The notes under the pieces were generated by a model. The model saw nothing but the letters and a program-made list of their open reading frames with translations, did no database searches and was not told the DNA's origin. A stretch of DNA of 64,000 nt from Solirubrobacterales bacterium (GTDB lineage Bacteria; Actinomycetota; Thermoleophilia; Solirubrobacterales; Solirubrobacteraceae), in assembly GCA_019240115.1 (NCBI GenBank), contig JAFAYV010000009.1, positions 62,001-126,000 of the forward strand. The letters are read 5' to 3'. How positions within the stretch are numbered: position 1 is the stretch's first letter; each line of letters begins with the position of its first letter. Below are positions 45,155-59,933 of this stretch, one piece after another. The translations under genes were made by a program, and so were the position numbers.

Positions 45155-46301
45155 CGATCCCCACGCCGGATTGCGCGAGGGGGTCCGCGCCGTCTGTCGC
45201 CGGTTCCCCGAGGGCTATTGGCGCGAGCTCGATGCCCAGGGCGCCTACCCCGCGGCGTTCGTGGAGGCGATGACCGAAGCGGGCTACCTCGCCGCGCTCA
45301 TCCCGCGGGAGTACGGCGGCCTCGGGCTCGGCATCGACGAGGCCTCGGTCGTGCTCGAGGAGATCAACCGCGCGGGCGGCAACGCGCAGCCGGCGCATGC
45401 CCAGGTCTACACGATGGGCACCCTGCTGCGCCACGGCTCCGAGGCGCAGAAGGAGCGCTGGCTGCCGCGGATCGCCTCCGGGGACATCCGCCTGCAGGCG
45501 TTCGCGGTGACCGAGCCCGAGGCGGGCACCGACACGACCTCGCTGTCGACGATGGCGCGCCACGACGGCGACGGATATCTCATCGACGGTCGCAAGATCT
45601 ACATCTCCCGGGTCCTGCAGTCCGACTTCATGATCCTGCTCGCCCGCACGACGCCGCGCGCCGAGGTGCAGCGTCGCTCCGACGGCCTATCGGTCTTCTT
45701 CGTCGACCTGCAGGCGGCGATCGGGCACGGACTCGACGTGCGCCCGCTGCGCGTGATGATCAACAACGCGACCAACGAGCTCGTGTTCGACGGTCTCCGC
45801 GTCGACGCCGACTGCCTGATCGGGACCGAGGGAGAGGGCTTTCGCTACATCCTCGACGGCATGAACGCCGAGCGCATCCTCATCGCCGCCGAGTGCGTCG
45901 GCAACGGGCGCTGGTTCACCGAGCACGCGACGCAGCGGGCCCGCGAGCGCGAGGTGTTCGGCCGGCCGATCGGCGCCAATCAGGGGGTCCAGTTCCCGAT
46001 CGCGCGGGCCCATATCGACATCGAGGCGGCCGACCTGATGCGCGCCGAGGCGGCCCGCCGGTTCGACGCTGGCCTGCCCTGCGGCGCGCAGGCGAACATG
46101 GCGCTGCTGCTCGCGGCCGACGCCGCTTGGCAGGCGGCGAACACGGCGATCCAGACCTTCGGCGGCTACGGCTACGACGCCGAGTACGACGTCGAGCGCA
46201 AGTTTCGCGAGACGCGGCTGTTCCAGATCGCGCCGGTCTCCACCAACCTCATCCTCGCCCACGTCGCCCAGCACGTGCTCGGGCTTCCACGGTCGTTCTA
46301 G
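45141..46301 (+). CDS. Acyl-CoA dehydrogenase
   Basis: Flavoprotein (386 aa) introducing a double bond into an acyl-CoA. AFAVTEPEAGTDTTSL near residues 117-132 and QTFGGYGYDAEYDVERKFRE near 338-357 are the FAD/substrate and C-terminal signatures; the catalytic base region lies near the latter. ATG at 45141 overlaps the CaiB reading frame. With MaoC and CaiB it forms a small acyl-CoA degradation locus whose CoA-transferase is broken. Confidence 0.92.
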   Translation: MPTADDPHAGLREGVRAVCRRFPEGYWRELDAQGAYPAAFVEAMTEAGYLAALIPREYGGLGLGIDEASVVLEEINRAGGNAQPAHAQVYTMGTLLRHGSEAQKERWLPRIASGDIRLQAFAVTEPEAGTDTTSLSTMARHDGDGYLIDGRKIYISRVLQSDFMILLARTTPRAEVQRRSDGLSVFFVDLQAAIGHGLDVRPLRVMINNATNELVFDGLRVDADCLIGTEGEGFRYILDGMNAERILIAAECVGNGRWFTEHATQRAREREVFGRPIGANQGVQFPIARAHIDIEAADLMRAEAARRFDAGLPCGAQANMALLLAADAAWQAANTAIQTFGGYGYDAEYDVERKFRETRLFQIAPVSTNLILAHVAQHVLGLPRSF

Positions 46302-46344
46302 TGGTCGGCCGGGCGAGCAGTTCTACCTGCTGCGGCTGATGACG

Positions 46345-46986
46345 TCACGAGCGTGAGCGCTCGAGCACATGGCGTCGCGGGGCCGCCAGTGGCGCGTTCA
46401 CCGGCGCGCGGGAGCAGGGTTCGCCCGGAGCACGAGCCCGGGCGAGCTCGACGTCGCGGTACGTCAGCCGGTCGGGAGGGTGGCCGCTGATCGCCCGGCG
46501 CTCGAGGTCGAGCAGCGCCTCTTGGCGGTCGGTCCCGCCGGCGCCGTCGGTCAGCTCGCGCTCGGTAGCGATGACGCGGTGCCGGGGGATGAGGATCGGC
46601 ACCGGCGTGCGGTCGACCGCCGTGGCGACCGCTCGTAGAGCGGCGGGCCGTCCGACGATGATCGCCAGCTCGGCGTCGGTGAGCGTCGTTCCGTAGGGGA
46701 CGCGCTTGATCGCCTCCCAGACGCGGCGCTCGAACGGGCTGCCGGCGCTGAGGTCGAGCAGGATGTCGAAGCGCTCCCGGTCGCCGGCGAAGTACTGCTT
46801 GAGCTGCAGAGTCGCCATCGCGAATGCGGCAGGCCAGCGATCGGCCTCATCGAGCGTCGAGCGAGGCTCGGAGAACTGCAGGCCGGTCAGGCCTGTCGGG
46901 CCGCCGAGGAGCGTGAGCGGCCCGAGCGGGGTGTCGTGGACGGTCCAGAAGATGACGAGGCGCGGGTCGTAGCGGTCGTGGTGTCA
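46345..46986 (-). pseudogene. Degenerate O6-alkylguanine-DNA alkyltransferase (Ogt-type) gene
   Basis: Protein similarity covers a full Ogt: VHDTPLGPLTLLGGPTGLTG near the beginning, FERRVWEAIKRVPYGTT, then PILIPRHRVIATERELTDG. The acceptor-cysteine motif PCHRV reads PRHRV, so the alkyl-accepting Cys is Arg. The N-terminal homology starts just after an in-frame TGA and has no ATG, GTG or TTG before ATG 46818, so the first third cannot be translated normally. A shortened protein from 46818 (157 aa) is possible. A functional alkyltransferase-like (cysteine-less) protein is an alternative but the lost start argues against it. Confidence 0.7.
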
Positions 46987-47099
46987 GAGCAGCCGGGTGC
47001 CGTCGGACAGACTCTCACGGTAGCCGCCGAGGCCGACCGCCACTCGACGGCCACCTTCGCGACGGAGGATGACCCGCGGGTTGGCGGGCGCCGGCGGGC

Positions 47100-47141
47100 T
47101 TGACTTTGGGCGGCAAAGCCCAGTAGAGTTTGTGTCACAAA
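47100..47141 (+). promoter_or_regulatory. Promoter with a perfect palindromic operator
   Basis: TTGACT (47100-47105) and TAGAGT (47124-47129) with an 18-bp spacer resemble a housekeeping promoter. Directly after, TTTGTGTCACAAA (47129-47141) is a perfect 6-bp inverted repeat around one base. It lies 17 bp upstream of the membrane-protein ATG, whose GGAGG is at 47147-47151. The downstream winged-helix gene is the obvious candidate binder, giving autorepression. Confidence 0.72.
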
Positions 47142-47158
47142 CTATCGGAGGCTGAGAG

Positions 47159-47833
47159 ATGAGCGACATCTCCGGGACGGGCAACGCCGCGAACGAGGCC
47201 GACGAGGGTCGGCTGGATCCTCGGGAAGCCGCGCGTCTGTTGGCGCAGACGCGGTGGCGGGCGCAGCGCGGGCTGGACTTCCGCTCGCCGTGGCTGTCGC
47301 TGCTCGCGGCAGCAGCGATGCTGGTGGGGTTCGGTGCAATCTGGCTGTCGGTCCGCGGCCAGCATCCCTATGAGGGTCCGACCCCCGTGGGTCTGGTGGG
47401 CCTGTATGCGGCAGTGCTGGTTCGGATCGCCTCGGTCATCTACGCCCATCGCCGAGCCACCGAGGGCGTCACCGGGCGCTCCGTGCAGCGGCGCCAGGCG
47501 GAGGGAGCGGCGCTGGCGGTGGCGCTGATCGTGGTGTATGTGGTCATGGCCGCCCTGGCGCACGCCGGGGCGAGCGATGGAGTCGTCTACGGCGTCTACG
47601 TCAGCTCGGCGACGCTGATCGTGCTCGGCACCTTCGGGGCCGCCCGCGCGGCCGCCCGGGAGGATTGGCCGAGCCTCGGCCTGTCCACCGCGGTCATGCT
47701 CGTCGCCTCGGGCAGCGCGTTCGCCGGACCGCGCGGGGTGTGGCTCAGCGACGGCGTGGGGCTGTGCGTCGTCCTGCTGGGCTACGGGACCCTCCAGGCG
47801 TGGCGGCGGCACGCATCCGGATCAGACGCATGA
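47159..47833 (+). CDS. Multi-pass membrane protein
   Basis: A 224-residue protein with a charged N-terminal 40 residues and about five or six membrane helices (about 45-65, 78-95, 118-140, 145-165, 172-190, 195-212). LDPREAARLLAQTRWRAQRG near the start is common in actinobacterial membrane proteins paired with winged-helix regulators. Substrate or function unknown. Stop overlaps the regulator's ATG. Confidence 0.75.
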   Translation: MSDISGTGNAANEADEGRLDPREAARLLAQTRWRAQRGLDFRSPWLSLLAAAAMLVGFGAIWLSVRGQHPYEGPTPVGLVGLYAAVLVRIASVIYAHRRATEGVTGRSVQRRQAEGAALAVALIVVYVVMAALAHAGASDGVVYGVYVSSATLIVLGTFGAARAAAREDWPSLGLSTAVMLVASGSAFAGPRGVWLSDGVGLCVVLLGYGTLQAWRRHASGSDA

Positions 47834-48129
47834 GCGCTGCCGGGATCGACCCGGTGATCCACGTCCCCGCCCGGCTGCAGATCGTCGCCACGCTGGCCGC
47901 CCTGCCCGAAGGGGACGCGCTGTCGTTCACCCGTCTGCAGAACATGATCGGACTCACTCCCGGCAACCTCATCACACACCTCCGCAAGCTCGAGGACGTC
48001 GACTACGTCACGATCGAGAAGACCGGCAGCGGGCCGGCATCGCGCACCGCGGTGGCGCTGACCCACCGGGGGCACGCGGCCCTGGACCTCTACACCGAAA
48101 CGCTCCGCGGCCTGCTCAACGGCCTCTAG
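47830..48129 (+). CDS. Winged-helix transcriptional regulator (ArsR/MarR-like)
   Basis: A 99-residue single-domain regulator. DALSFTRLQNMIGLTPGNLITHLRKLEDVDYV (in parts: FTRLQNMIGLTPGN, LITHLRKLEDVDYV) is the helix-turn-helix and GSGPASRTAVALTHRG the wing. No metal-binding cysteines of ArsR sensors are present. ATGA overlap with the membrane-protein gene. Probably controls its own operon through the upstream palindrome. Confidence 0.85.
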   Translation: MSAAGIDPVIHVPARLQIVATLAALPEGDALSFTRLQNMIGLTPGNLITHLRKLEDVDYVTIEKTGSGPASRTAVALTHRGHAALDLYTETLRGLLNGL

Positions 48130-48246
48130 TAGTAGTGCTTCACATTGGAGGGCAGGACTCGAGTGAGCCGGCGATGAGGAGCGTGGCGAGCACGCGGGTC
48201 AGGTAGGAGTTCCCGCCGACACCGTGGCTTGGCGGGTCGGTTCGGG

Positions 48247-49554
48247 CTAGACCAGGCTAGGGAGGCTGGTCGCGAGCGCGCCGGCGGCCATGACGGCGAC
48301 GATGATCACGCTGATCGTCGCGACCACGCGGAAGATGGGGCCGTTTGCGGCGGGGCCGAGGACGCTGGGGCGGTTGGCGAGCGCGAGGATGAACGCGAGC
48401 AGGATTGGGGTGATGATCCCGTTGAGGATCTGGGCGTTGACCAGGAGCGAGATGAGGTTGCCGGGGACGAGTGCGAGGCCGGCGCCGATGATGATCTCGA
48501 TCGTGAACAGGCCAAGGAATAGGCGGGCTTCGCTGAAGCGCCGCGAGACGCTGGACTCGGTGCCGATCGCCTCGCCGACGGCGTAGGCGGTCGAGAGGGG
48601 GACCACGGCGGCGGCGAGGGCGCTGGCGCCGATCAGACCGATCGCGAAGAGCTCGGAGGCGAAGCGGCCGGCGACGGGTTTGAGTGCGTGCGCGGCTTGG
48701 GCGGCGGAGTTCAGCGGCGCGCGGTGGTGGATCGCGGCCGCAGTGGCGATGATGATGAAGATGCTGACGATGTCGGCGAAGATCGCGCCGCTGACGGTGT
48801 CCAGCCGGGTGGCTGGGTACTCGCTGGGGCCGGCGCCCTTGTCGGCGACGGCGGCGGCGACGTAGAACTGCATGTAGGGGGTGATAGTCGTGCCGATCAG
48901 AGCGACCGCCAGCAGCAGGAAACTCTTGTTGGCCAGCAGGTGGGGCAGGATCAGGTTGCTGGTGGCGGTGCCCCAGTCGGGGTGGGCGAGGATCGCGGCG
49001 ATCGGGTAGGTGATGAACACCAGGCTGAGCAGCAGGAAGATCCGTTCGGCGTAGCGGTAGCTGCCGAGCGTGACCAGCGCCCAGATCGCGAGCGCGGCGA
49101 CCGGGACGCTGAGGTAGCGGCTGACATGCAGGAGCTGCATCGCGGCGGCGATCCCGGCGAACTCGCTGACGACCAGCCCGGTGTTCGCGATCACGAGCAG
49201 CACGAGCGCGAACGCGGCGATCCGCAGGCTGAATTGCTCGCGGATGAGCGCGCCGAGGCCTTGGCCGGTGTAGGCGCCCAGGCGGGCGCACATCTCCTGC
49301 ACGACCACGAGCCCGACGGTGACCAGGAGCATCACGAACAGGGTGCGGTAGCCGAACTGCGCGCCGGCGGAGGCGTAGGTGACGATCCCGCCGGCGTCGT
49401 TGCCGGCGTTGGCCGCGATCAGCCCCGGTCCGAGGATCGCCAGCACCAGGATCAGCCTTCGCCGCAGCGCCGGCCGTCCCGGTGGCACCCGCTCGCCTTG
49501 AGTCGGGTCGCCGGTGGTCGGCGGCGACGTGGTCGTGGGCTCGGGGGCGCTCAT
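48247..49554 (-). CDS. NRAMP-related divalent metal transporter
   Basis: Membrane transporter (435 aa, about 11 helices). In helix 1 the usual DPGN is NDAGG (ANAGNDAGGIVTYASAG), and helix 6, normally with a metal-binding Met in 'MPHN', reads GTTITPYMQFYVAAA. These changes match the NRAMP-related Mg2+ transporter (NRMT) type rather than classical Mn/Fe NRAMP. Last gene of a three-gene operon with an MgtE_N/CBS protein and a second transporter. Magnesium as substrate is inferred. Confidence 0.83.
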   Translation of the reverse strand: MSAPEPTTTSPPTTGDPTQGERVPPGRPALRRRLILVLAILGPGLIAANAGNDAGGIVTYASAGAQFGYRTLFVMLLVTVGLVVVQEMCARLGAYTGQGLGALIREQFSLRIAAFALVLLVIANTGLVVSEFAGIAAAMQLLHVSRYLSVPVAALAIWALVTLGSYRYAERIFLLLSLVFITYPIAAILAHPDWGTATSNLILPHLLANKSFLLLAVALIGTTITPYMQFYVAAAVADKGAGPSEYPATRLDTVSGAIFADIVSIFIIIATAAAIHHRAPLNSAAQAAHALKPVAGRFASELFAIGLIGASALAAAVVPLSTAYAVGEAIGTESSVSRRFSEARLFLGLFTIEIIIGAGLALVPGNLISLLVNAQILNGIITPILLAFILALANRPSVLGPAANGPIFRVVATISVIIVAVMAAGALATSLPSLV

Positions 49555-50939
49555 GCGGGCGCGTGGCGGAACAGCTGAAAGCGGGTCTTGTCAGAGACCA
49601 GCGCGTCGACGATGTCATCGGCCAGGATCCGCCCCAGCGGCCGTCCGTCCTCGTCGACGACCAGGATCGAGGCCGAGCGGTTCGCGATCAGGGCAACCGC
49701 GACCTCGCTGACCGGGGTGTCGGGGCTGACGGTCACCGGCCACGGCGGCCCGATCAGCTCTGAGAGCCGCCGGTCGCGGTCGGCGAGCAGCAGCTCGAGG
49801 ACCGTGACGTCGTCCAGCAGCCGTCCCTGCGGGTCGACCACGACGATCGCGGACAGGTCAACGGCATGAGCGGCCAGGTCGCGCAACCGTTCGGTGACCT
49901 GCGCGACGGTGTCGTGTTCGGCGCACTGCACCAGCGTGCTCGTCATCACGCCGCCGGCGCGGTCCTCGTCATAGCCCAGCAGCCGCGCGAGCCGAGCCGA
50001 GACGTCCGTGGGCATCGCGTCGAGCAGTCGGGCGCGCTCGGCGGCGGTCATGTCGCGTAGCGCGTCGACGGCCTCGTCGGGCTCCATCTGGGCCAGCAGC
50101 TCCGCAGCGGTCTCGGGGGGCGCGTCACGGAGCAGGCGGTGGACATCGTCGTCGTGCATCTCCTCGACCGCGTCGGCGGCGGCCTCGGGATCGAGCGTGT
50201 CGAGCAGGTGCTGGCGCTCTGAGCGGCCGAGCTCTTCGAGCAGGTCGGCGAGCTCCCCGGGCCGCAACGCTGACAGCGCGCGCCCGGAGGTCCGCAGCCG
50301 AACCCCGCCGATGCGGTCGGCGTCGGCGAGCGGCTGGATCGCGGCCCAGTCGATCACCCGCTCCGGGGTGGGACGGACCCGCAGCCGCGCCGGCCCCAAC
50401 CGTCGCAGCAGACTGGTCGTGCTGACGTCCACGCCGACGAGGCGAAGCTCGCCGCGCAGCTGGGCGAGCACGAGGTCGGCGGCGCGGATCACACGGCGGC
50501 CATCCACATCGATCAGCTGGTGGTCCAGGACGCTCGCGGCCAGCTGCATCTCTCCGTCCCGCGGTTCGAACTCGCGTAGATCGACTCGCGCGCTGGCGAG
50601 CCGCACTTCGCCGTGCGCGACGTGCGCGATCTGGGAGGCGGGCACCCAGCTGCGACGGCGACCGACCCGGATGATCAGTCCGGTCGCCGGCGGGTAGGGC
50701 TCAAGCTCGGTGTCCGGGGAGAAGTTCACCACGACGTCGACCACGCGGCCGACCTCATCGCCGGCCTGGTTGCTCACCGGTCGGCCGATCAGCCCGGCGA
50801 GGCTGACCAGCGCCTCGCGGACCGACCGCAGCGCCAACGCCCGTCCTGAGCGCAGCCCGCGATCGCGCAGCGACCGCAGCCGCCCCCACCGCGGGTGCGC
50901 GTAGGTCCGCTCGGTCATCGGCGCTGACGCGTCACCCAC
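49551..50939 (-). CDS. Soluble PRC-barrel, MgtE_N and CBS domain protein
   Basis: A 462-residue cytoplasmic protein. A PRC-barrel-like part (about 45-200, with GLIGRPVSNQAGDEVGRVVDVVV split as GLIGRPVSNQAGDEVG, RVVDVVV) precedes an MgtE N domain of helical repeats (about 235-335: ALRPGELADLLEEL, LLDTLDPEAAADAV, LLAQMEPDEAVDAL, LLDAMPTDVSARL), then a CBS pair (about 345-455). It has the complete cytosolic Mg2+-sensing part of the MgtE channel but no channel domain. GTG 50939 lies 3 bp after the upstream transporter; ATG 50918 is an alternative. Likely a metal-responsive gate or regulator for the flanking transporters. Confidence 0.85.
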   Translation of the reverse strand: MGDASAPMTERTYAHPRWGRLRSLRDRGLRSGRALALRSVREALVSLAGLIGRPVSNQAGDEVGRVVDVVVNFSPDTELEPYPPATGLIIRVGRRRSWVPASQIAHVAHGEVRLASARVDLREFEPRDGEMQLAASVLDHQLIDVDGRRVIRAADLVLAQLRGELRLVGVDVSTTSLLRRLGPARLRVRPTPERVIDWAAIQPLADADRIGGVRLRTSGRALSALRPGELADLLEELGRSERQHLLDTLDPEAAADAVEEMHDDDVHRLLRDAPPETAAELLAQMEPDEAVDALRDMTAAERARLLDAMPTDVSARLARLLGYDEDRAGGVMTSTLVQCAEHDTVAQVTERLRDLAAHAVDLSAIVVVDPQGRLLDDVTVLELLLADRDRRLSELIGPPWPVTVSPDTPVSEVAVALIANRSASILVVDEDGRPLGRILADDIVDALVSDKTRFQLFRHAPA

Positions 50940-50942
50940 AGC

Positions 50943-52634
50943 TCACCCCACGCTGATCGAGACGAGCTTGACGAGAACCAGCGCCACCGCGAGCGCGAGA
51001 TACCCGCGAAGCGTCAGCAACCCGACCTTCCGCCGGACCGACAGCATCGGTGGCGCGAGCGCTGCCAACGGTGGCATTCGCCACTGCGCGCGCTCCTCTG
51101 AGGCCACCCGCGGCCGGGATGGGAGCTCAAGGCGCCCGCCGCGGGGCACGCTGAGCATCCGCTCCGCCAGCGCCTCGCGGCGGAACAACCACCCGCGCAG
51201 CAGCAAATAGACACCGATCACGACTCCGATCACCAGCCCGCCGGCCAGGACCGCCACGATCGCCGCGAACCGGATGTGCGGGAACAGGATGCTGGCGGTC
51301 AACAGGACCGACAGCATCACCAGGCTCCACACGACGATGCTCGTGAACACGTTGCGCCACCGGCCGTTGACCCACGGGCCGAGCACGTCACGGTCGTTGC
51401 ACAGCAGCAACAGGAACACGGTCGCGCTGGGCAGCAGCACCCCCGCCAGGCTTTGCACCCCCTCGGTCAGCGTCCCCAACGGCACCCCCGGGATGAGCAC
51501 CAAGACGACCGCGAGCACCATGAGCGCTCCGTAGCACCCGTAGAACGCCTTGGCCTGTCCGACGGAGCGGTGCAGCGAGTGGTTGACCCCCAGCACGTCG
51601 CTCGTCGCATATGCGCTCGCCAGGCCGACCGCGGCCGCACCGATGATGCTCGCGTCCAACAACCCGATCGCGAACAGCGTCCCGGCCAATGGCGCGCCGG
51701 CGTGTGCCAGTCCTGCGCTGACGCCGGCGGCGTCGGTGAAATGTCCGAACCCTGGGCGGCCGGTGAACGCGGCCGCGGAGAAGCCGATCATCGCGGCGGC
51801 GCCGGCGATCACGAGCACGATCCCGATCCACAGATCGGCTTTCTCATATCGGATGAACCGGGGGGTGATCCGCTTGTCGATCACATAGGACTCCTGAAAG
51901 AACAGCTGCCACGGCGCGATCGTCGTGCCCACGATCGCGATCACCAACAACAACGCCGCCGAAGCGTTCGCGCCCGCCGGGAAGCCAGGCACCAGCACGC
52001 CGTGCACCATCGCCGCGGCGGGCGGGTGCACGAGTGCGTAGACCGCGATCAGCACCAACGAACCGGCCACCAACCCCAGGCACAACCGCTCAAATCGGCG
52101 CAGGCTGCCGGTGCTCGCCGCGCCAACCACAATCACGGCGCCGAGCACGACCGTCGGTCCCTTCGGCAGATCCAGCGCACGGCCCGCGAGCGTGATCCCG
52201 ATGAACTCGGTGATCACCGTCAGCGCGTTGAGCACGAACAGATCAATCACGCTAAACGCGCCCCAGAAACGACCGAACCGCTCCAGGATCAGCCGAGCGT
52301 GACCCACCCCGGTCACCGCGCCTAGGCGCACGACCATCTCCTGGTTGACGTAGAGCACCGGGACCAGCAGCACCAGCGTCCACAACAGCCGCGTCCCGTA
52401 GTTCTGACCCGCCTGCGTATAGGTCCCAAACGCGCCCGCGTCGTTATCGCCGACCATCACGATCAACCCCGGACCCAGGATCGCCAACAACGTCGCTGCC
52501 CACGGCGACGGCCTGCGGCGCACCGCCGAGCGTTCCCCCAGCCGGATCGTGCCCAGCGCGCCGTGAATGTCACCGATATGCGCGTCGTCTGACACCGCGC
52601 GATCTCCCGACCGGGCCAGGGGTGCCGCGTTCAT
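50943..52634 (-). CDS. NRAMP-related divalent metal transporter with C-terminal extension
   Basis: A 563-residue transporter of the same family as the one at the end of the operon. Helix 1 carries GDNDAGAFGTY in place of DPGN and helix 6 carries GTTIAPWQLFFQE. It has a longer soluble N-terminus (about 45 residues) and about 90 extra residues at the C-terminus with one more membrane helix. ATG 52632-52634 follows GGAGG. First structural gene after the leader peptide and hairpin. Confidence 0.83.
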   Translation of the reverse strand: MNAAPLARSGDRAVSDDAHIGDIHGALGTIRLGERSAVRRRPSPWAATLLAILGPGLIVMVGDNDAGAFGTYTQAGQNYGTRLLWTLVLLVPVLYVNQEMVVRLGAVTGVGHARLILERFGRFWGAFSVIDLFVLNALTVITEFIGITLAGRALDLPKGPTVVLGAVIVVGAASTGSLRRFERLCLGLVAGSLVLIAVYALVHPPAAAMVHGVLVPGFPAGANASAALLLVIAIVGTTIAPWQLFFQESYVIDKRITPRFIRYEKADLWIGIVLVIAGAAAMIGFSAAAFTGRPGFGHFTDAAGVSAGLAHAGAPLAGTLFAIGLLDASIIGAAAVGLASAYATSDVLGVNHSLHRSVGQAKAFYGCYGALMVLAVVLVLIPGVPLGTLTEGVQSLAGVLLPSATVFLLLLCNDRDVLGPWVNGRWRNVFTSIVVWSLVMLSVLLTASILFPHIRFAAIVAVLAGGLVIGVVIGVYLLLRGWLFRREALAERMLSVPRGGRLELPSRPRVASEERAQWRMPPLAALAPPMLSVRRKVGLLTLRGYLALAVALVLVKLVSISVG

Positions 52635-52651
52635 GACGACCTCCAAGCACA

Positions 52652-52668
52652 GCCCGACTCGGGCTGCG
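52652..52668. promoter_or_regulatory. 17-bp palindrome before the first NRAMP-like gene
   Basis: CAGCCCGACTCGGGCTG is a perfect 8-bp inverted repeat around one base, only 18 bp upstream of the ATG and just before the GGAGG. In RNA it could form a hairpin adjacent to the ribosome site after opening the innermost pairs. It is the second such element in this leader region. Confidence 0.5.
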
Positions 52669-52719
52669 AGCAGGAAGAGCGCACGCCCGACCCGCTGGTC
52701 CTGTGGCCGAGCCGGCGGG

Positions 52720-52851
52720 TCAGGCGCGGCCCGCCGAGCAGGATCGGGGGCACGGACACGGCCCGCCGTCCAGCTCAGACACAGCGTCCTCGGCGCGGCC
52801 CGGCGGGCCGGAGGCTCGGTCACGCACGACCGAAGCGACAACAATTCTCAT
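52720..52851 (-). CDS. Candidate leader peptide of the metal-transport operon
   Basis: A 43-codon frame starting at ATG 52849-52851 with GAAGGAG 7 bp upstream and ending 85 bp before the first transporter gene. It begins MRIVVASVVRDRASG and has an acidic centre and a PCPCPRSC stretch. Acid- and proline-rich leader peptides regulate mgtA-type genes by translation stalling in other bacteria; a similar role here is speculation. It could also be a non-functional frame. Confidence 0.4.
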   Translation of the reverse strand: MRIVVASVVRDRASGPPGRAEDAVSELDGGPCPCPRSCSAGRA

Positions 52852-52852
52852 A

Positions 52853-52889
52853 GCGGGCTCCTTCGGGTTTCTCTCCCCGAACGGCCCGC
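52853..52889 (-). promoter_or_regulatory. Nested stem-loop sequestering the leader-peptide ribosome site
   Basis: In the leftward transcript, outer arms GCGGGC (52889-52884) and GCCCGC (52858-52853) enclose inner arms TTCGGG (52881-52876) and CCCGAA (52867-52862) with a GAGAGAAA-type loop. The GGAG ribosome site lies between the inner and outer right-hand arms, so the fold would mask it. The first ATG begins one base after the structure. This is the arrangement expected of a translational switch or attenuator. No known riboswitch consensus was recognised. Confidence 0.5.
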
Positions 52890-53147
52890 CAACCGCGACC
52901 CTCAGCTCAGAGAACGCGCGCGCGCCGACAGGGAGATGTGAAGACTTCGAGGTTGGTCTTCGTCCATAGCGTCAGATCAGATCTCCTTGCCGCGCGATAA
53001 GCGGGCGTAGGCGGTGCGCGGGACACGCTATCACCCAATCCGCGTGCCGGCCACCGCACCGGAGCGGCTTCACGCCGCGCAAACGCGGGCGGTGGGTGAC
53101 CATTTTTCGCCTCCGCCCGTCGTAGCGCGGCTCCATCCGATTCACCG

Positions 53148-53393
53148 ATGCCGAGCGCGAGAATCGCCGCACTGCCGACCCGCGAACGCCTCCACGACGC
53201 CGCGCAGCAGCTGCTCAGCTCAGACGGCTGGCAGCGATGGGTTCGCGTGCGCGCAAGGGGCGGCCTCGCGCGACTGTCGCTCAACAACCAGCTGCTGGTC
53301 GCGCTCTCCTGCCCGGACGCGACGGTCGTCGCGGGGTTCGCGCAGGAGCCAGGTTCTTCAAGCTGGTCTCTCGCTCGAACTCCTGATCGGTAG
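53148..53393 (+). pseudogene. Fragment of an ArdC-type antirestriction/ssDNA-binding domain
   Basis: An 81-residue frame with AAQQLLSSDGWQRWV, LARLSLNNQLLVAL and DATVVAGF, which follow the N-terminal ssDNA-binding domain of ArdC-like plasmid proteins ('...YSLNNxLLIxxQxPxATxVAGF'). It ends abruptly in unrelated residues (PGSSSWSLARTPDR), and no peptidase or remaining domain follows. Probably the stump of a protein from a mobile element. Confidence 0.6.
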
Positions 53394-53497
53394 CGCGGCA
53401 ACGCCCGATTAGCGGGCGTTTGGGCTCCGGTGGCGGGTGATCGGGCGTCGGTTGGGCGGGTGCTGGATCGATCGAGGACGCTTGTACCATCACCGCG

Positions 53498-54439
53498 ATG
53501 GCGCGCGACATGGCGTCGCTGCAGGCGCGGCGGCTCGAGGCAAGGCGTCGTCGGCGGCGCCGCCTGGAGAGGGGCCTGGCGTTGTTGGCGGTCGGGTTCG
53601 CGGTGGCCGCGGGAATCGTCTGGACCACCTGGTCGACCGGATCGAGCACCCACTCGACCGGTGGGGTGATCCCGAGGAGTGCTCCGATCAAGGTCGGGCC
53701 CGCGCCCGCACTTGCGATCAAGCCCCACTCGGCGCTGGCCGCGGAGCTCGCCCCGGTGCGACGGCTCGCCTCCCACGGGCTGCCGCTGTGGTGCGGTGGC
53801 CGGCAGAGGCGGATGGTCGCGCTGACCTTCGACGACGGTCCGGGCGTGTACACGCACTACGCGATCAAGAAGCTCCGCGAGGCGCACCTGCCCGCGACGT
53901 TCTTCCTCGTCGGCAAGTCGATCGCCGCCTGGCCCGGGCTCGCCCAGCGCGAAAAATCCGTCGCGACATTCGGCGATCACACGATGACCCACCCGTTCCT
54001 GCCGGGGCTCCCCTACTCGGAGGCGGTGCAGGAGATCGCCGCCGATCAGCGGCTGGTCGAGCGAACGGTGCATGAGCCGGTGCTGCTGTTCAGGCCCCCG
54101 TACGGGAGTCGCACGCCGGCGATCGACGCCGAGGTCAAGCGGCTCGGCATGGTCGAGGTGCTCTGGAACGTCGATAGCGCCGACTCCCTCGGCGCGAACT
54201 ACCTCGGCATCGAACACAACGTGATCGCGGGGCTTCGACCGGGCTCGATCATCCTCATGCACGAGAACCGGGGGCAGACGATCCGCGCGCTGGACGTGAT
54301 CTTCGCCGCTCTTCGCCGGCGCCATCTCGACGCCGTCACCGTGCCACAGCTGATCGCTCAGGACCCGCCGTCGCTCGCGCAGCTACGCGAGGGCTACTAC
54401 GGATGTCCGGTCAGGCTCAGCAACGGCAGCGGCAGCTGA
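53498..54439 (+). CDS. Membrane-anchored polysaccharide deacetylase (NodB/CE4)
   Basis: Exported or surface deacetylase (313 aa). An arginine-rich N-terminus (about 10-24) precedes one membrane helix (about 26-45). The CE4 domain has TFDDGPG (motif 1), HTMTHP (motif 2, metal His), RPPYGSR (motif 3), WNVDSADS and ILMHEN (motif 5). All metal and catalytic residues look present. Likely acts on peptidoglycan or another cell-wall glycan. ATG at 53498 and 53510 are possible. It lies end-to-end with ectB. Confidence 0.92.
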   Translation: MARDMASLQARRLEARRRRRRRLERGLALLAVGFAVAAGIVWTTWSTGSSTHSTGGVIPRSAPIKVGPAPALAIKPHSALAAELAPVRRLASHGLPLWCGGRQRRMVALTFDDGPGVYTHYAIKKLREAHLPATFFLVGKSIAAWPGLAQREKSVATFGDHTMTHPFLPGLPYSEAVQEIAADQRLVERTVHEPVLLFRPPYGSRTPAIDAEVKRLGMVEVLWNVDSADSLGANYLGIEHNVIAGLRPGSIILMHENRGQTIRALDVIFAALRRRHLDAVTVPQLIAQDPPSLAQLREGYYGCPVRLSNGSGS

Positions 54440-54501
54440 GGCGCCGGCCCGCCGTCCGCTCAGCCCGCCGGAGGTCGCGTGCCCGCGGTGGCGAGGCCGC
54501 G

Positions 54502-55845
54502 TCAGTCGGCCCGGCTGCGCTCGCAGCCCTGCAGTGCGCGACGAGCGCCGCCCGACGGGGAGCGTGACGCGGCGATCCGCGAGCCCGCGCCCTTGCCGCC
54601 GGCTGCGCTGAGCACGGCATCGGCGAGCCTCCCCAGGCCGGTCTCGAGGTCGTCGTCGGTGATCGTCAAGGGCGGCAGCAGCTTGACGACCCCATCGTCG
54701 GGCCCGCACGTCTCCACCAGCAGCCGCATCTCGAACGCGGCACGGCTGACCGCGTGGGCGATCTCGGGGCGCTCGAACGCCAGCCCATGGGCCAGCCCGC
54801 GTCCCCGGCTGGCGATTCCGGTGCCGTCGACGGCGCCGCGCAGCGCAGCGAGCATCTCGGCGACATGCTGGCCACGCTCGAGCGTGCTGCGCTGCAGTCG
54901 GTCGTCGGCCCAGTAGTGGCGCAGCGCGGCGGTGCCGGCGACGAGCCCGAGGGTGACGCCGCGGAACGTGCCGGTGTGTTCGCCCGGCTCCCACACGTCG
55001 AGCTCGTCGCGAATGAGGGTGAGCGCGACGGGCAGGCCGTAGCCGCCGATCGACTTGGAGAGGCACACGATGTCAGGCCGGATCCCGGCCTCCTCGAAGC
55101 TGAAGAACGCGCCCGTGCGGCCGCAGCCCATCTGCACGTCGTCGAGGATGAGCGGCACGTCGTGATCGCGGCAACGCACCGCCAGCCCGCGCAGCCAGTC
55201 AGTGCGCGCGACGTTGATGCCTCCGTCACCTTGGACCGCCTCGACGATCACGGCGGCGGGCGGCTCGCCGGTGCCGAGCTCGCCGGCGAGCGCCCGGTCG
55301 AGCTCGGCGAACTCCGCTGCCAGATCGGGAGTGCCCTGGTCAAACGCCAGGCAGTGCGCAAGGGTGACCCGCCCGGCGCAGGCGGCCCGGCGCTGCGGGT
55401 TGCCGGACACCGACATGCTGCCGAGCGTCATCCCGTGAAAGCCGTCGCGGAAGCACACGTAGTCGTTTCGGCCGGTCGCCTTGTGCGCGAGCCGGAGCGC
55501 CGCCTCGACGGCGTTGGCGCCGCCCGGTCCGGGGAACTGGACGCGGTAGCGCAGATCGCGCGGGCGCAGGACGAGCTCGTCGAAGGCGGCCAGGAACTCA
55601 CGCTTGGCGACCGTGAACATGTCCAGCGACTGGATCACCCGATCGTCGGCGAGGTAGCGCAGCACCGGCTCCTTGAGCGCGGGGTTGTTATGGCCATAGT
55701 TGAGCGCGCCCGCGCCGGCGAAGAAGTCCAGGTAGGACCGCCCGTCCTCGTCGTGCAGCCAGCTTCCGCGCGCGCGATCGAACACGACGGGCCAGGCCCG
55801 GCAGTAGTAGCGAACCTCGGACTCGAGGGTCTCGAAGATCTTCAT
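54502..55845 (-). CDS. ectB: Diaminobutyrate-2-oxoglutarate aminotransferase (EctB type)
   Basis: PLP enzyme (447 aa) converting aspartate semialdehyde to L-2,4-diaminobutyrate with glutamate. It starts MKIFETLESEVRYYCRAWPVVFD and has FFAGAGALNYGHNNP (start split: MKIFETLESEVRYYC, RAWPVVFD), both EctB hallmarks, plus GGANAVEAALRLA, ILDDVQMGCGRTG and the PLP lysine in CLSKSIGGYGLP near residue 261. No ectA or ectC is adjacent, so it is not an ectoine operon. Its ATG overlaps the stop of the Pls-like NRPS by one base, which ties diaminobutyrate supply to that synthetase. About 20 extra residues at the C-terminus. Confidence 0.93.
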   Translation of the reverse strand: MKIFETLESEVRYYCRAWPVVFDRARGSWLHDEDGRSYLDFFAGAGALNYGHNNPALKEPVLRYLADDRVIQSLDMFTVAKREFLAAFDELVLRPRDLRYRVQFPGPGGANAVEAALRLAHKATGRNDYVCFRDGFHGMTLGSMSVSGNPQRRAACAGRVTLAHCLAFDQGTPDLAAEFAELDRALAGELGTGEPPAAVIVEAVQGDGGINVARTDWLRGLAVRCRDHDVPLILDDVQMGCGRTGAFFSFEEAGIRPDIVCLSKSIGGYGLPVALTLIRDELDVWEPGEHTGTFRGVTLGLVAGTAALRHYWADDRLQRSTLERGQHVAEMLAALRGAVDGTGIASRGRGLAHGLAFERPEIAHAVSRAAFEMRLLVETCGPDDGVVKLLPPLTITDDDLETGLGRLADAVLSAAGGKGAGSRIAASRSPSGGARRALQGCERSRAD

Positions 55846-58800
55846 CAGTCGTCTCCAGGGGGGTGGGCTGCGCATGCAGCGGTTTCGAGAGCCGGGTTTC
55901 CGGCCCAGGCGGTGGCCGCGGCGACCCGCGTGCCCTTCATCAGAAACGCGTCGGTCTCGAGCACCGCGCCGTCGCCGATGACGACGTCGTAGTGCGCGAA
56001 CGCGCCGGTCCCGAGACAGACCTCGTCGCCGACCACGATCGGTCCGGACTTGAACGCGCCGTCCTCCAGGGAGTGACTCTGGAGCGAGGTGCCGGTGTTG
56101 AGCACGCAGTCGTCGCCGATTGAAACGAGCCTGCGCTCGGTCATCGAGCAGCCGTCGTCGAACAGTCGGCGGCCGACGCGGGCGCCGAGCGTGCGCCAGG
56201 CGACGCCCTTCAGCGGGGTGCCGTCGAGGATGCGCAGATAGCCGGGCGCCGGAACCTTCCAGAACCGTTCGTGGCGCCAGAAGGCACGGTCGTAGATGGA
56301 GCAGATCGCCGGCGGCCGGTCGCGGCGAGCGATGAGCAGACGCTCGGCGGCGACGAAGACGGCGAGCGGCATCGCGACGTCGAGCAGGATGGTCGCCAGG
56401 GACGCCGGCCATGCCGCCAGCCCGGGCGCGCGGTCGTCGATCGCCGCCGACGCCAGCAGCGCGGCGATGACGACGAACCGCACGGCGGCGAACAGCGCGA
56501 TCGTGACGAGGTTGTGGCGCAGCTTGGCGGCCAGCGGCGGGCTGCCGGCGAGCGCGTTCATGTCGGCGTCGCGGCGCACGCTGCGCGGGATCTCGAAGCA
56601 CGGCGAGCCGAGCAGGCCCGTGTTCTCCCGCAGCGGACCGTCGAGCGGCACCATCACCTTCGTTCCCAGCAGGCAGTTGTCGCCGACGCGCGCCCCCGCC
56701 GGGAACACGATCGCGTTACCCAGGAAGTTGTCCGCCCCGATCGTCGCCGGCGACACGCAGAACGAGGTGCTCGAGATCTCGGCATTGGCCAGGGAGAGTC
56801 CGTCGGAGACCATCGTGCCGGAGGAGACCGTGCACAGCGCGGGGACGTCGTGCTTGACCTGCAGGCCGAAGTTCGAGCCCGTCTGGCGCACGGCGCCGAG
56901 CCGATAGCCGAGCACCCGCAGGTAGGAGACGATCAGCGAGCTGTCACCACAGAGGGTCGTCAGCAGGGGGATGTTCGAGGTGCGGACGACGATGCGCAGG
57001 ATGGCCCAGTGCGCGCCGTACAGGGGATACACGCGGCCGGGCCGCAGGCTCCGCGTCAACAGCCGGGGAACGGTTGCCGCCACGAGCGCAGCGACCAGCG
57101 GCACGGTGAGCGTGACGATCGCCGCCAACGCCAGGATCCCCGACACGGGCAGCCCGCGCAGCCAGCTCACGTGGCCGACGAGGACGGTCGCCACCACCGC
57201 CTCCAGCGGGCTGACCGCCGCGAGCGTCAGGAGCAGCCGCGCGGCGCCGTACAGGTAGCGCCGGCGCGCGCGCAAGGTCAGGGGCGGCACCCGCACGAAG
57301 TCGGCGCCTGCGGGCGCGGGACGCGCGGGCGAGCCGTGCCAGCGTTCCCCCGCGGGGACATGCTGGCCGGCGTGCAGCGCGGAGGCGTGGCCGATCTGGG
57401 CGCCGTCGCCGATCGACGTGGCGATGTCGAACATCACGTGCTCGGAGACGACGCAGTCGCGGCCCAGACTGACCGGGCCGAACTCGATCGCGCCCGCCCG
57501 GGCCCGATAACCGTTGAGCCGCCCGTCCTTGCGCACGAGGCATCCGTCGCCGATCCTGATCAAGTCGGCGGCGACCGGCATGTGCGTGGTCAGGATCGTC
57601 GTGCCGCGACCGATGCGGGCACCGAGCGCGCGCAGATATGAGCCGTACAGCGGCGTGCCGACGATCAGGCGCACCGTCGGGTTGGCGACGAGCAGCGTCT
57701 TGACGATCCAGAAGCGCACGTAGGCGACGCTCCAGAGGCGGATCGGTCGTTCGGTGAAGCGGCCGATCAGCGTCCACTTCGCAAGGATCGGCACAAGCCC
57801 GGCGACGAGCAGGGTGCCGGTCCCGACCGCGACCGCGCGCGCGTACAGCGCCAGCGCGCCGTGCGCCGCCGTCAGCCAGCCCGCGCCGAGATCGAAGGCG
57901 GCGGCCGCGGCGCCCGCGTACAGGAGGAACGCCAGTGCCTGCAGCGCAGCGCAGAGGGCGACGCGCGGCCGACCCACCGGGGCGACGAGCCGCGTGCCGG
58001 CCGGCCGACCGACGGGGCCCTCGGACGCGGTCCGCCGCGGATCGGCCAGCGCCCGCGCCAGCTCGCGGACCGTGGAGTGGGCGTACACGTCGCGCATCGA
58101 CACCGTCCGCACGTCCGGCTGGTCGTGCAGGCGCGCGCAGAACATCGCCATCGTCAGCGAGTCCCCGCCGAGATCGGCGAAGAAGTCGGCCGTGGCGCTG
58201 GGCTGATCGAGCTCCAGCGCGACCGCGAGCGCGGCGGCCAGTGCCGTCTCGAGGCCCGGACGGGGCGCGGCCTGCGCGTCGATCGGGGCGGCGGGCCGCC
58301 CCCGGGCGCGCGGCGCCGGCAGCAGCCGGCGGTCGACCTTGCCGCTCGGCATCGTCGGGATGCTGGCCAGCCGCTCGAGCTGGGCGGGGACCATGTACGG
58401 CGGCAGGTGGGTGCGCAGGTGGTCGAGGATCGCCGTCTCGTCGATGTCGCCCTCGATGTCGCCTTCGCCGCTCCGCGCCGACGTGTAGTAGCCGACGAGC
58501 TCGATGGCGCCGGGTGCGCGCTCCCAGGTGCGCACGACGGCCTGGCCGATCGACGGCATGCAACGCAGCAGCACCTCGATCTCGCCGAGCTCGATCCGGT
58601 AGCCGCGCAGCTTGATCTGCTCGTCGATGCGTCCGCGATGCTCGAGTTGACCGTCGGCGTTGACGGCGCCGAGGTCGCCGGTGCGGTAGAGGCGCCCCGA
58701 CGGGTTGTCCGGCAGCGCGAGGAAGTCGGGCACGAACGACCGCGCGGTGCGCTCGGGCAGGCCGAGGTACCCGTCGGCGAGGCCGATTCCGGCGATCGCG

Positions 58801-59933
58801 ATCTCTCCCTCCTCGTGCAGCGGGAGCGCCCGGTCGGCGTCTGGATCGAGGATCACGATGGAGTACGTCGGCAGCGGCACGCCGATCGTGACCGGACGGC
58901 CGGGCTCGAGCGTCGACCACGTCGCGCTGACGGTCGTCTCGGTCGGACCGTAGACGTTGAGCATCCGTCGCCCGGGTCGTTGCCAGCGTGCCGCCAGGTC
59001 CGGCGGGCACGCCTCGCCCGAGACGAGCAGGAAGCGCAGCTCGGGGAGGTCGGCGTCCAGCGTGGCCAGCAGCGTCGGGACGCAGACGAGCGCCGTCACG
59101 TGCCGGTCCAACAGGAAGGCGTGCAGATCAGAGCCGAGCAGCGCCGCGCCGGCGGGCCTGGGCACGAGCGTGGCGCCGGCCATCCACGCGATCCAGATCT
59201 CCTCGATCGCGAAGTCGAACGCGATCGTGAGCCCCTGATAGACGCGGTCGTCCGCGCGCATCCCGTACGCGCCGGCGGCGACGCGCACGAAGTTGCAGAT
59301 ACTCGAATGCGCGATCGCGACGCCCTTCGGACGACCGGTCGTCCCCGACGTGTAGATCACGTAGGCGAGCTCGTCGGCGACCCGCAGGCCCGTCGGCCGC
59401 TCGCAGGACTCGGCCGCGATCGCGTCCGCTGCCACGTCGAGACAGACGACCCCGGCGTTGTTGCGGCGGCGCAGGCCGGGCGCCAGCCGCGAGATCGTCA
59501 GCACGGTTTCGGCGCCGGCGTCACCGACGATGAACGCGAGGCGCTCGGGCGGAAACGCGACGTCCAGCGGCACGTATGCGGCATGCAGCTTGAGCACGGC
59601 GAGCATCGCGACGTAGCCGTCGACCGGCGTGTCGAACAGGAGCCCGACGCGATCGCCGGGGGTGACGCGGCCGGTCCGCGCGAGGTGGTGGGCGAGGCGG
59701 TTGGCGCGGTGGTCGAGCTCGACGTAGGTGAGCGTCGCGTCGGGTCCGTCGACGGCCAGCCGGTCGCCCTCGCCATCGCGCGCGAGCGCGTCGCAGCGGG
59801 CCTCGAACAGGTGGTGTAGCCGCTCGCCTTCGGTCCAGCGCACGCTCGCGTCGCCGGAGGCCGTCAGCACGAGGCCGTCCGCGCTGATGCGGCCGACGGG
59901 CCGGCCGGGAGCGATCAGCGATGCGCCGGACAT
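55845..59933 (-). CDS. Poly-lysine-synthetase-like NRPS (adenylation, carrier, membrane/hexapeptide region)
   Basis: A 1362-residue synthetase with the layout of streptomycete epsilon-poly-lysine synthetase (about 1320 aa). Adenylation domain (about 30-545): YVIYTSGTTGRPKG, AFDFAIEEIW, NVYGPTETT, YRTGDLG, MPSGKVDRR. Carrier domain (about 555-640) with LGGDSL, Ser592. Then membrane helices (about 657-740, 885-975, 1145-1225) alternating with three soluble left-handed-beta-helix-like segments (about 755-870, 1050-1140, 1255-1350). Pocket read by eye is D-F-E-V-L-S-V-V-S-K, not one I can assign; the Glu could meet an amine side chain. Coupled to ectB, so diaminobutyrate is the favoured monomer. 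Confidence 0.9.
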   Translation of the reverse strand: MSGASLIAPGRPVGRISADGLVLTASGDASVRWTEGERLHHLFEARCDALARDGEGDRLAVDGPDATLTYVELDHRANRLAHHLARTGRVTPGDRVGLLFDTPVDGYVAMLAVLKLHAAYVPLDVAFPPERLAFIVGDAGAETVLTISRLAPGLRRRNNAGVVCLDVAADAIAAESCERPTGLRVADELAYVIYTSGTTGRPKGVAIAHSSICNFVRVAAGAYGMRADDRVYQGLTIAFDFAIEEIWIAWMAGATLVPRPAGAALLGSDLHAFLLDRHVTALVCVPTLLATLDADLPELRFLLVSGEACPPDLAARWQRPGRRMLNVYGPTETTVSATWSTLEPGRPVTIGVPLPTYSIVILDPDADRALPLHEEGEIAIAGIGLADGYLGLPERTARSFVPDFLALPDNPSGRLYRTGDLGAVNADGQLEHRGRIDEQIKLRGYRIELGEIEVLLRCMPSIGQAVVRTWERAPGAIELVGYYTSARSGEGDIEGDIDETAILDHLRTHLPPYMVPAQLERLASIPTMPSGKVDRRLLPAPRARGRPAAPIDAQAAPRPGLETALAAALAVALELDQPSATADFFADLGGDSLTMAMFCARLHDQPDVRTVSMRDVYAHSTVRELARALADPRRTASEGPVGRPAGTRLVAPVGRPRVALCAALQALAFLLYAGAAAAAFDLGAGWLTAAHGALALYARAVAVGTGTLLVAGLVPILAKWTLIGRFTERPIRLWSVAYVRFWIVKTLLVANPTVRLIVGTPLYGSYLRALGARIGRGTTILTTHMPVAADLIRIGDGCLVRKDGRLNGYRARAGAIEFGPVSLGRDCVVSEHVMFDIATSIGDGAQIGHASALHAGQHVPAGERWHGSPARPAPAGADFVRVPPLTLRARRRYLYGAARLLLTLAAVSPLEAVVATVLVGHVSWLRGLPVSGILALAAIVTLTVPLVAALVAATVPRLLTRSLRPGRVYPLYGAHWAILRIVVRTSNIPLLTTLCGDSSLIVSYLRVLGYRLGAVRQTGSNFGLQVKHDVPALCTVSSGTMVSDGLSLANAEISSTSFCVSPATIGADNFLGNAIVFPAGARVGDNCLLGTKVMVPLDGPLRENTGLLGSPCFEIPRSVRRDADMNALAGSPPLAAKLRHNLVTIALFAAVRFVVIAALLASAAIDDRAPGLAAWPASLATILLDVAMPLAVFVAAERLLIARRDRPPAICSIYDRAFWRHERFWKVPAPGYLRILDGTPLKGVAWRTLGARVGRRLFDDGCSMTERRLVSIGDDCVLNTGTSLQSHSLEDGAFKSGPIVVGDEVCLGTGAFAHYDVVIGDGAVLETDAFLMKGTRVAAATAWAGNPALETAACAAHPPGDD

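Follow-up and report, generated by a model that had tools for sequence, protein, structure and literature searches.

A free-standing MgtE-type sensor between two NRAMP-related transporters: a candidate magnesium-uptake operon in a Solirubrobacterales bacterium

The closest described systems are the NrmT operons of Shin et al. (2014, PMC4072509), in whose available text a gene for an MgtE cytosolic domain stands beside most NrmT genes and feedback regulation is proposed. A second point of reference is EleNRMT, an NRAMP-related magnesium transporter (NRMT) that carries both Mg2+ and Mn2+, and the signature of such transporters is a DxxG motif in helix 1 combined with TxxA/T in helix 6, as given in the available text of Ramanadane et al. 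(2022, PMC8806188). The literature consulted does not settle what keeps NRAMP-type Mg2+ importers from overfilling the cell. Here we describe a locus within a 64,000-nucleotide stretch of DNA (hereafter the window; assembly GCA_019240115.1, contig JAFAYV010000009.1, positions 62,001 to 126,000 of the forward strand) from Solirubrobacterales bacterium, in which the gene for a free-standing sensor, S, lies between genes for two NRAMP-fold transporters, T2 and T1. We somewhat favor the view that the three genes form a Mg2+-uptake unit, with S as a detached regulatory subunit of T1 and T2 possibly under its control. A preliminary description of this DNA had presented a sensor acting in trans on such transporters as a distinct regulatory design, a claim of novelty that falls because Shin et al. 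had already described and proposed it.

The genes run T2, S, T1 on the minus strand as a tight operon (Table 1). T2 runs from an ATG at 52634 to a stop at 50943, S opens with a GTG at 50939 after a gap of 3 bases, and the stop of S overlaps the start of T1 in an ATGA. We read the trio as one transcription unit for the uptake of a divalent metal, which is most likely Mg2+. A search for sigma-70 promoters found none.

The middle gene had been said to encode PRC-barrel, MgtE_N and CBS parts but no MgtE channel, and Pfam bears this out, with the refinement that there are two PRC-like domains and a pair of CBS domains. S matches MgtE_N with 81.6 bits and CBS with 47.5 bits, the PRC match of 21.3 bits is borderline (cut-off 21.2), and the channel domain PF01769 has no Pfam match in S. 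Its NCBIfam mgtE score of 91 bits is below the cut-off of 232.75. The predicted fold (pLDDT 83.8) has a beta-rich PRC half and a half resembling the cytosolic part of MgtE, and the Z of 20-22 against solved MgtE cytosolic domains comes from the MgtE_N-CBS half, the PRC half being barely tested by that comparison. Ligands were mapped onto MgtE of Thermus thermophilus (TtMgtE), with the numbering verified at ten residues. The equivalents of TtMgtE residues 59, 91, 95, 247 and 250 are acidic in S and in 93-98% of 137 NRMT-linked sensors; when 52 positions were compared, these five were among the seven most acidic. The acids kept in S are those of Mg4 (D91, D247), Mg6 (D95), Mg7 (E59) and half of Mg5 (D250); the roles of the MgtE metal and ATP sites are given in the available texts of PMC5882242 and PMC5529423. 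S ends 17 residues past D445, the D250 equivalent, where the plug helix would begin, and 17 residues is also the median length of this tail in the 137 NRMT-linked sensors. The best reading is that S would serve T1 as its regulatory subunit and sense Mg2+ in the cytosol.

T1 falls clearly among the NRMTs and is a predicted NRAMP-related magnesium transporter, and T2 appears to be a divergent NRMT-like transporter that joined the operon. Both match Pfam Nramp (273 bits for T1, 247 bits for T2), and with the NCBIfam MntH model they score 121 and 89 bits, under the cut-off of 430. Among solved structures the best relative of each is EleNRMT, with E=1e-102 for T1 (MntH 2e-19) and E=5e-43 for T2 (next 7e-18). 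In a quick tree of 124 rows, carrying SH-aLRT support only, the NRMT superclade comprises 111 rows (fork 89), T1 falls on the EleNRMT side, T2 lies in a sister branch (99), and DraNramp and E. coli MntH fall outside it. Phylogeny against EleNRMT-type transporters, suggested in the preliminary description as a check, therefore shows no clustering with Mn/Fe NRAMPs; the tree, the best structural relatives and the binding-site motifs together rule out that T1 and T2 are Mn/Fe NRAMPs.

The same description had noted a change from DPGN to NDAG(G/A) and an altered helix 6 in both transporters, and this is what the alignment gives: DAGG/TTIT in T1 and DAGA/TTIA in T2, where DraNramp has DPGN/ATVM and E. 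coli MntH has DPGN/ATIM. The canonical MntH/NRAMP pair, DPGN with A/CxxM, is present in neither T1 nor T2. That these are motifs of NRAMP-related Mg transporters was correct for T1, which has the DxxG-TxxA/T signature, but not for T2, which reads DxxA/TxxA and is termed NRMT-like, not NRMT, because of its helix-1 motif. When 180 NRAMP rows were aligned, 134 of the 141 sensor-adjacent rows read DG-T(A/T/S), no DN-AM row stood next to a sensor, and DxxA was confined to T2 and three close orthologs (in G516, G444 and G435), along with a truncated copy of T2 that the alignment also holds as a further DxxA row. The AlphaFold model of T2 (pLDDT 85.9; Z 29-41 against NRAMP-family chains) has helices 1 and 6 broken at NDAGA and TTIAP, and two additional C-terminal helices.

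Table 1. Genes, domains and motifs of the T2-S-T1 locus, in window positions.
Feature	Position	Strand	Remarks
T2	50943..52634	-	NRMT-like NRAMP-fold transporter, 563 aa; first gene of the operon
T2 helix-1 motif DAGA, residues 65-68	52431..52442	-	variant of NRMT DAGG; from alignment columns
T2 helix-6 motif TTIA, residues 237-240	51915..51926	-	from alignment columns
S	49551..50939	-	free-standing sensor, 462 aa, PRC-PRC-MgtE_N-CBS-CBS; no channel, no plug helix
PRC-barrel pair of S, ~residues 40-205	50325..50822	-	Pfam PRC; model strands 44-171; proposed dock
MgtE_N of S, residues 225-326	49962..50267	-	D257, D288, D292 kept (TtMgtE E59, D91, D95)
CBS pair of S, ~residues 327-450	49590..49961	-	D442, D445 kept (TtMgtE D247, D250)
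T1	48247..49554	-	NRMT, 435 aa; predicted cognate partner of S
T1 helix-1 motif DAGG, residues 53-56	49387..49398	-	from alignment columns
T1 helix-6 motif TTIT, residues 222-225	48880..48891	-	from alignment columns

Sensor and transporter occur together well beyond this genome. A phylum sample of 149 genomes yielded 56 full-length sensors (query start <=95, end >=436), and an NRMT gene adjoins 30 of them, 29 on the same strand (26 downstream and 3 upstream on the same strand, 1 downstream on the opposite strand). Six more carry a C-terminal membrane extension, with an NRMT elsewhere in the genome and none adjacent, and in the remaining 20 a DUF1003 gene comes next; sensors with none of these partners number 0 of 56. 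All 36 non-DUF1003 sensors reside in genomes with an NRMT-class gene, a class counted per genome, not per gene, and defined by E<1e-35 in a T2 search, a line set after seeing the gap from 5e-39 to 1e-28. Hence the predicted co-occurrence holds, and the sensor is not found mostly without such transporters. Of the 39 NRMT-class genomes, 36 have a full sensor, one (G038) has a truncated sensor beside its NRMT, and two (G058, G121) have none. Among the best 80 of 545 relatives in a scan of genome_contigs, which by their titles span Actinomycetota, Chloroflexota, Nitrospirota, Bacteroidota, Bacillota and others, an NRAMP gene adjoins the sensor in 68 loci, 4 others reach a contig end, and 8 have no adjacent NRAMP (L062, L069, L082, L083, L095, L102, L103, L113). 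A set of 177 sensors, mixing sensor-driven, T2-driven and hand-picked loci, divides into 137 NRMT-adjacent, 21 with DUF1003, 12 with neither, 6 at a contig end and 1 with an opposite-strand NRMT. The adjacency in 30 of 56 and in 68 of the best 80 of 545 rules out that the sensor is a chance neighbor. In the Clostridium loci L095, L102 and L103, where no NRAMP is present in the stretch retrieved, the sensor gene precedes a T-box leader and the gene of a PALP-family enzyme.

Which part of the sensor faces the transporter is suggested by partial copies. Of the 39 NRMT-class genomes, 37 have a PRC-pair protein adjoining an NRMT, which is a full sensor in 30, a PRC-only protein in 6 and a truncated sensor in 1, and in all six genomes whose full sensor is unlinked, a protein of ~200 aa with only PRC-PRC (model positions 38-207) follows the NRMT. 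As judged from these neighborhoods, the PRC pair is the transporter's most constant companion and MgtE_N-CBS a separable part. Because a PRC-only protein still follows the NRMT where the sensor is unlinked, it is likely that the PRC pair docks the sensor on the transporter. At L140 and L264 the NRMT has a truncated sensor as its neighbor, 305 and 251 aa long. PRC-PRC-only relatives, which correspond to the N-terminal half of the sensor, lie directly downstream of an NRMT at L123, L124, L129, L130, L131, L133, L244 and L245. Among the literature results listed (in one listing, 10 of 315), none brought a PRC-barrel together with MgtE_N, with Nramp or with a magnesium transporter.

An M-box riboswitch (RF00380) lies upstream of the S-T1 orthologs of Kitasatospora phosalacinea (L038, 131 bits) and Streptomyces violascens (L045, 127 bits), 2 of the 13 loci scanned together, and these are 53-54% identical to the window in S and 58-63% in T1. 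The Mg-sensing partner of the preliminary description fits these M-boxes and the kept MgtE ligands, but it is an assumption that S controls both transporters, because the nearest orthologs of T2 have no sensor beside them and S and T1 form a co-inherited pair. By eye, a similar short open reading frame starting MDSS, perhaps a leader peptide, lies between each M-box (L038:5144-5317, L045:5501-5674) and the sensor gene. The nearest orthologs of T2 in G516 and G444 (68-70% identical) sit in a T2-MgtC-ArsR-T2' cluster. Sensorless clusters at L206:5067-9579 and L207:979-5430 combine a T2 ortholog with genes for an MgtC/SapB protein, for an ArsR-type regulator and for another NRMT-like transporter. 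The host genome has one MgtC-family gene and a third NRAMP besides T1 and T2, and a search of it found no MgtE channel, which counts in favor of the Mg2+-uptake reading.

If the operon is indeed a Mg2+-uptake unit, the PRC pair of S would dock on the cytosolic side of T1, and its MgtE_N and CBS halves would bind cytosolic Mg2+ at their acidic interface. At high Mg2+ these halves would close on each other and uptake would be throttled. In MgtE the N-CBS interface shuts the pore via a plug helix, an element missing from S, and the signal would therefore have to pass through protein-protein contact. The sequences show the gene order, the family placement, the kept ligands, the conserved linkage and the riboswitches upstream of orthologs; from these we infer that S binds Mg2+ in this host, that PRC is its dock and that its control is inhibitory. 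T2 would be a transporter that joined the operon, with or without control by S.

Several observations weigh against this reading. No M-box and no other match were returned by an Rfam scan of window positions 46000-56000 at E<=1, and a scan of 34 other loci, both linked and unlinked ones, found no M-box. S has lost the residues of the ATP site and the acid equivalent to D226, the other half of Mg5; this site is arginine (R) in the MAFFT alignment or serine (S) in the phmmer alignment, non-acidic in both, and the acid is lost in all 17 examined sensors of its clade. The host genome also has one CorA, so the operon is not the host's sole Mg2+ route. The three nearest orthologs of T2, at 68-70% identity, have no sensor alongside, and the ArsR-type regulator near T2 orthologs would fit a transition metal too, this type of regulator being known mostly for transition-metal sensing. 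Finally, the available text of Shin et al. (PMC4072509) reports that NrmT transporters worked without the MgtE-like fragment, that the fragment of Acidobacterium capsulatum brought no better rescue by its transporter, and that the NrmT beside this fragment behaved as a Mn transporter, rescuing a Mn defect and, only at low millimolar Mg, a Mg defect.

The strongest alternative, to which we give a little less than an even chance, is that S acts on T1 alone, with T2 as a passenger on a common promoter that escapes control by S. S and T1 are each sister to their Streptomyces monashensis counterpart (96 and 99 in the sensor and transporter trees), in a clade made up mainly of Acidimicrobiia and Streptomycetaceae, and since both are sister to the same pair they would have travelled together. 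In the host-genus genomes searched that carry a sensor, it belongs to a different clade, with a T2-type transporter where the neighbor is readable, so the host lineage probably acquired the S-T1 pair, which T2 then joined. Co-inheritance of S with T1, the sensorless nearest orthologs of T2 and the pairing of T2-type transporters with another sensor clade elsewhere would all suit a passenger. The 3-base spacing between T2 and S does not, nor do two further loci where one sensor goes with two NRMTs (L209, T-S-T; L052, S-T-T), which make sensor sharing not unique, nor the partner exchange in the sensor tree, where the clade of T2 partners includes sensors with a T1-type neighbor (L145, L146, L148). 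The bracketing of a sensor by a transporter pair, central to the preliminary description, is thus real as gene order but mostly local. As a conserved three-gene unit it is ruled out, because among 265 loci with any match, a mixed and partly hand-picked collection with many short flanks, the layouts of sensor and more than one NRMT seen besides the window are L209, L052 and L043, the last being two divergent pairs back to back.

It is unlikely that S is a chaperone, an assembly factor or a decayed relic instead of a transport regulator. Transport in heterologous hosts without the fragment, as given in the available text of PMC4072509, speaks for it, as does a sensor that has lost both the plug helix and the ATP site, but the metal-ligand acids rank with the best-conserved acidic positions in the protein, and the persistence of the linkage across many phyla is unlike a relic. 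Slightly less probable still is a system for Mn2+ or another transition metal, with S sensing that metal instead of Mg2+, for which the Mn and limited Mg rescue by A. capsulatum NrmT, the Mn2+ transport of EleNRMT (both from the texts cited above) and the ArsR-type gene adjoining T2's nearest orthologs can be adduced, against the M-boxes upstream of two S-T1 orthologs, the DxxG-TxxT signature of T1 and the MgtC gene adjoining T2 orthologs.

The Mg2+-uptake reading of the locus can be extended, tentatively and with rather low confidence, to the idea that PRC-PRC-MgtE_N-CBS is a transferable Mg-responsive cassette used with three unrelated membrane families. The PRC pair would be the dock and MgtE_N-CBS the sensor, with an MgtE-like channel as partner in cis and NRMTs or DUF1003 membrane proteins as partners in trans; in the window, one cassette would be common to two transporters that differ in binding-site chemistry. 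DUF1003-linked sensors form one clade (13 rows, 100) beside the NRMT-linked sensors in the sensor tree, which indicates one change of partner. DUF1003 may be a new Mg-homeostasis partner, and if the cassette idea is true it would be an unrecognised player in Mg2+ homeostasis. No M-box was found in 18 DUF1003-type loci, and no literature linking DUF1003 with magnesium or MgtE was found, the only 2 papers found naming DUF1003 being on streptococci, to judge by their listing. A DUF1003 membrane-protein gene follows the sister-clade sensor in 20 of 20 phylum-sample cases, among them the host's own second sensor (G000:C12:4907-6094, L157); L226-L241, L172-L174 and L113 are loci of this kind.

Channel-bearing relatives provide the partner in cis. 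A membrane domain with a weak match to MgtE (27-48 bits) is fused to six sensors (L015, L020, L022, L026, L028, L062), none of which has an adjacent NRMT, and L031/L032 have both a membrane domain and an adjacent NRMT. This suggests either that S came from a channel-bearing ancestor, with a transporter in trans taking the place of the channel, or that the change ran the other way, the tree being unrooted. Sensors of the Coriobacteriia type (L019, L023, L027, L029, L030, L033, L034, L054, L065, L098, L107, L112, L114) have a C-terminal membrane extension of ~200 aa; a Pfam scan of five of them (L019, L027, L054, L065, L098) gave no MgtE channel match. Aligned with the MgtE channel by hhalign, the extension gave a probability of 97 when the set included L031/L032, and 90 (E=1.4e-6) once L031/L032 and L069 were removed, the reversed alignment giving no hit line. 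On this moderate evidence, the extension may be a decayed MgtE channel.

Around the operon, a winged-helix HTH_34 regulator gene (47836-48129, plus strand) faces the end of T1 and comes after a weak DUF2157-like membrane gene. A long gene at 55845-59933 on the minus strand has a translation that by eye resembles an adenylation protein of the NRPS type, whose C-terminal parts look like membrane and hexapeptide-repeat regions.

The association of sensor and NRMT is already on record, and it is the two-transporter form that is unusual. Like the NrmT operons of Shin et al., the window has an NRMT gene adjoining a gene for an MgtE cytosolic domain, but here two unlike NRAMP-fold genes surround one sensor, and the upstream M-box that is a trait of some NrmT-associated fragments, present in L038 and L045, is absent. 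The window sensor also has PRC-barrels, which do not appear in the available text of that paper. New pointers concern docking through the PRC pair, the magnesium specificity and a candidate second partner family, DUF1003, and the loci described here make the 2014 trans-feedback proposal directly testable, including a natural case of one sensor with two transporters. EleNRMT of Eggerthella lenta (PDB 7QIA) is the best solved relative of T1 and shares its DxxG-TxxA/T signature, but it was studied alone, and the available text of PMC8806188 has no mention of operon, accessory or cytoplasmic domain. Its Eggerthella/Slackia relatives have a sensor gene directly upstream; the one solved NRMT was thus studied without a partner that close relatives carry. 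The MgtE channel of T. thermophilus (PDB 2YVX, 2ZY9) has in common with S the N and CBS domains and the Mg4, Mg6 and Mg7 acids, whereas S has no transmembrane domain or plug helix and has two PRC-barrels in front. Finally, the six PRC-MgtE_N-CBS proteins with an MgtE-like membrane domain contain the same sensor in cis, fused to its membrane domain and with no adjacent NRMT, where the window has a free-standing sensor between two transporters.

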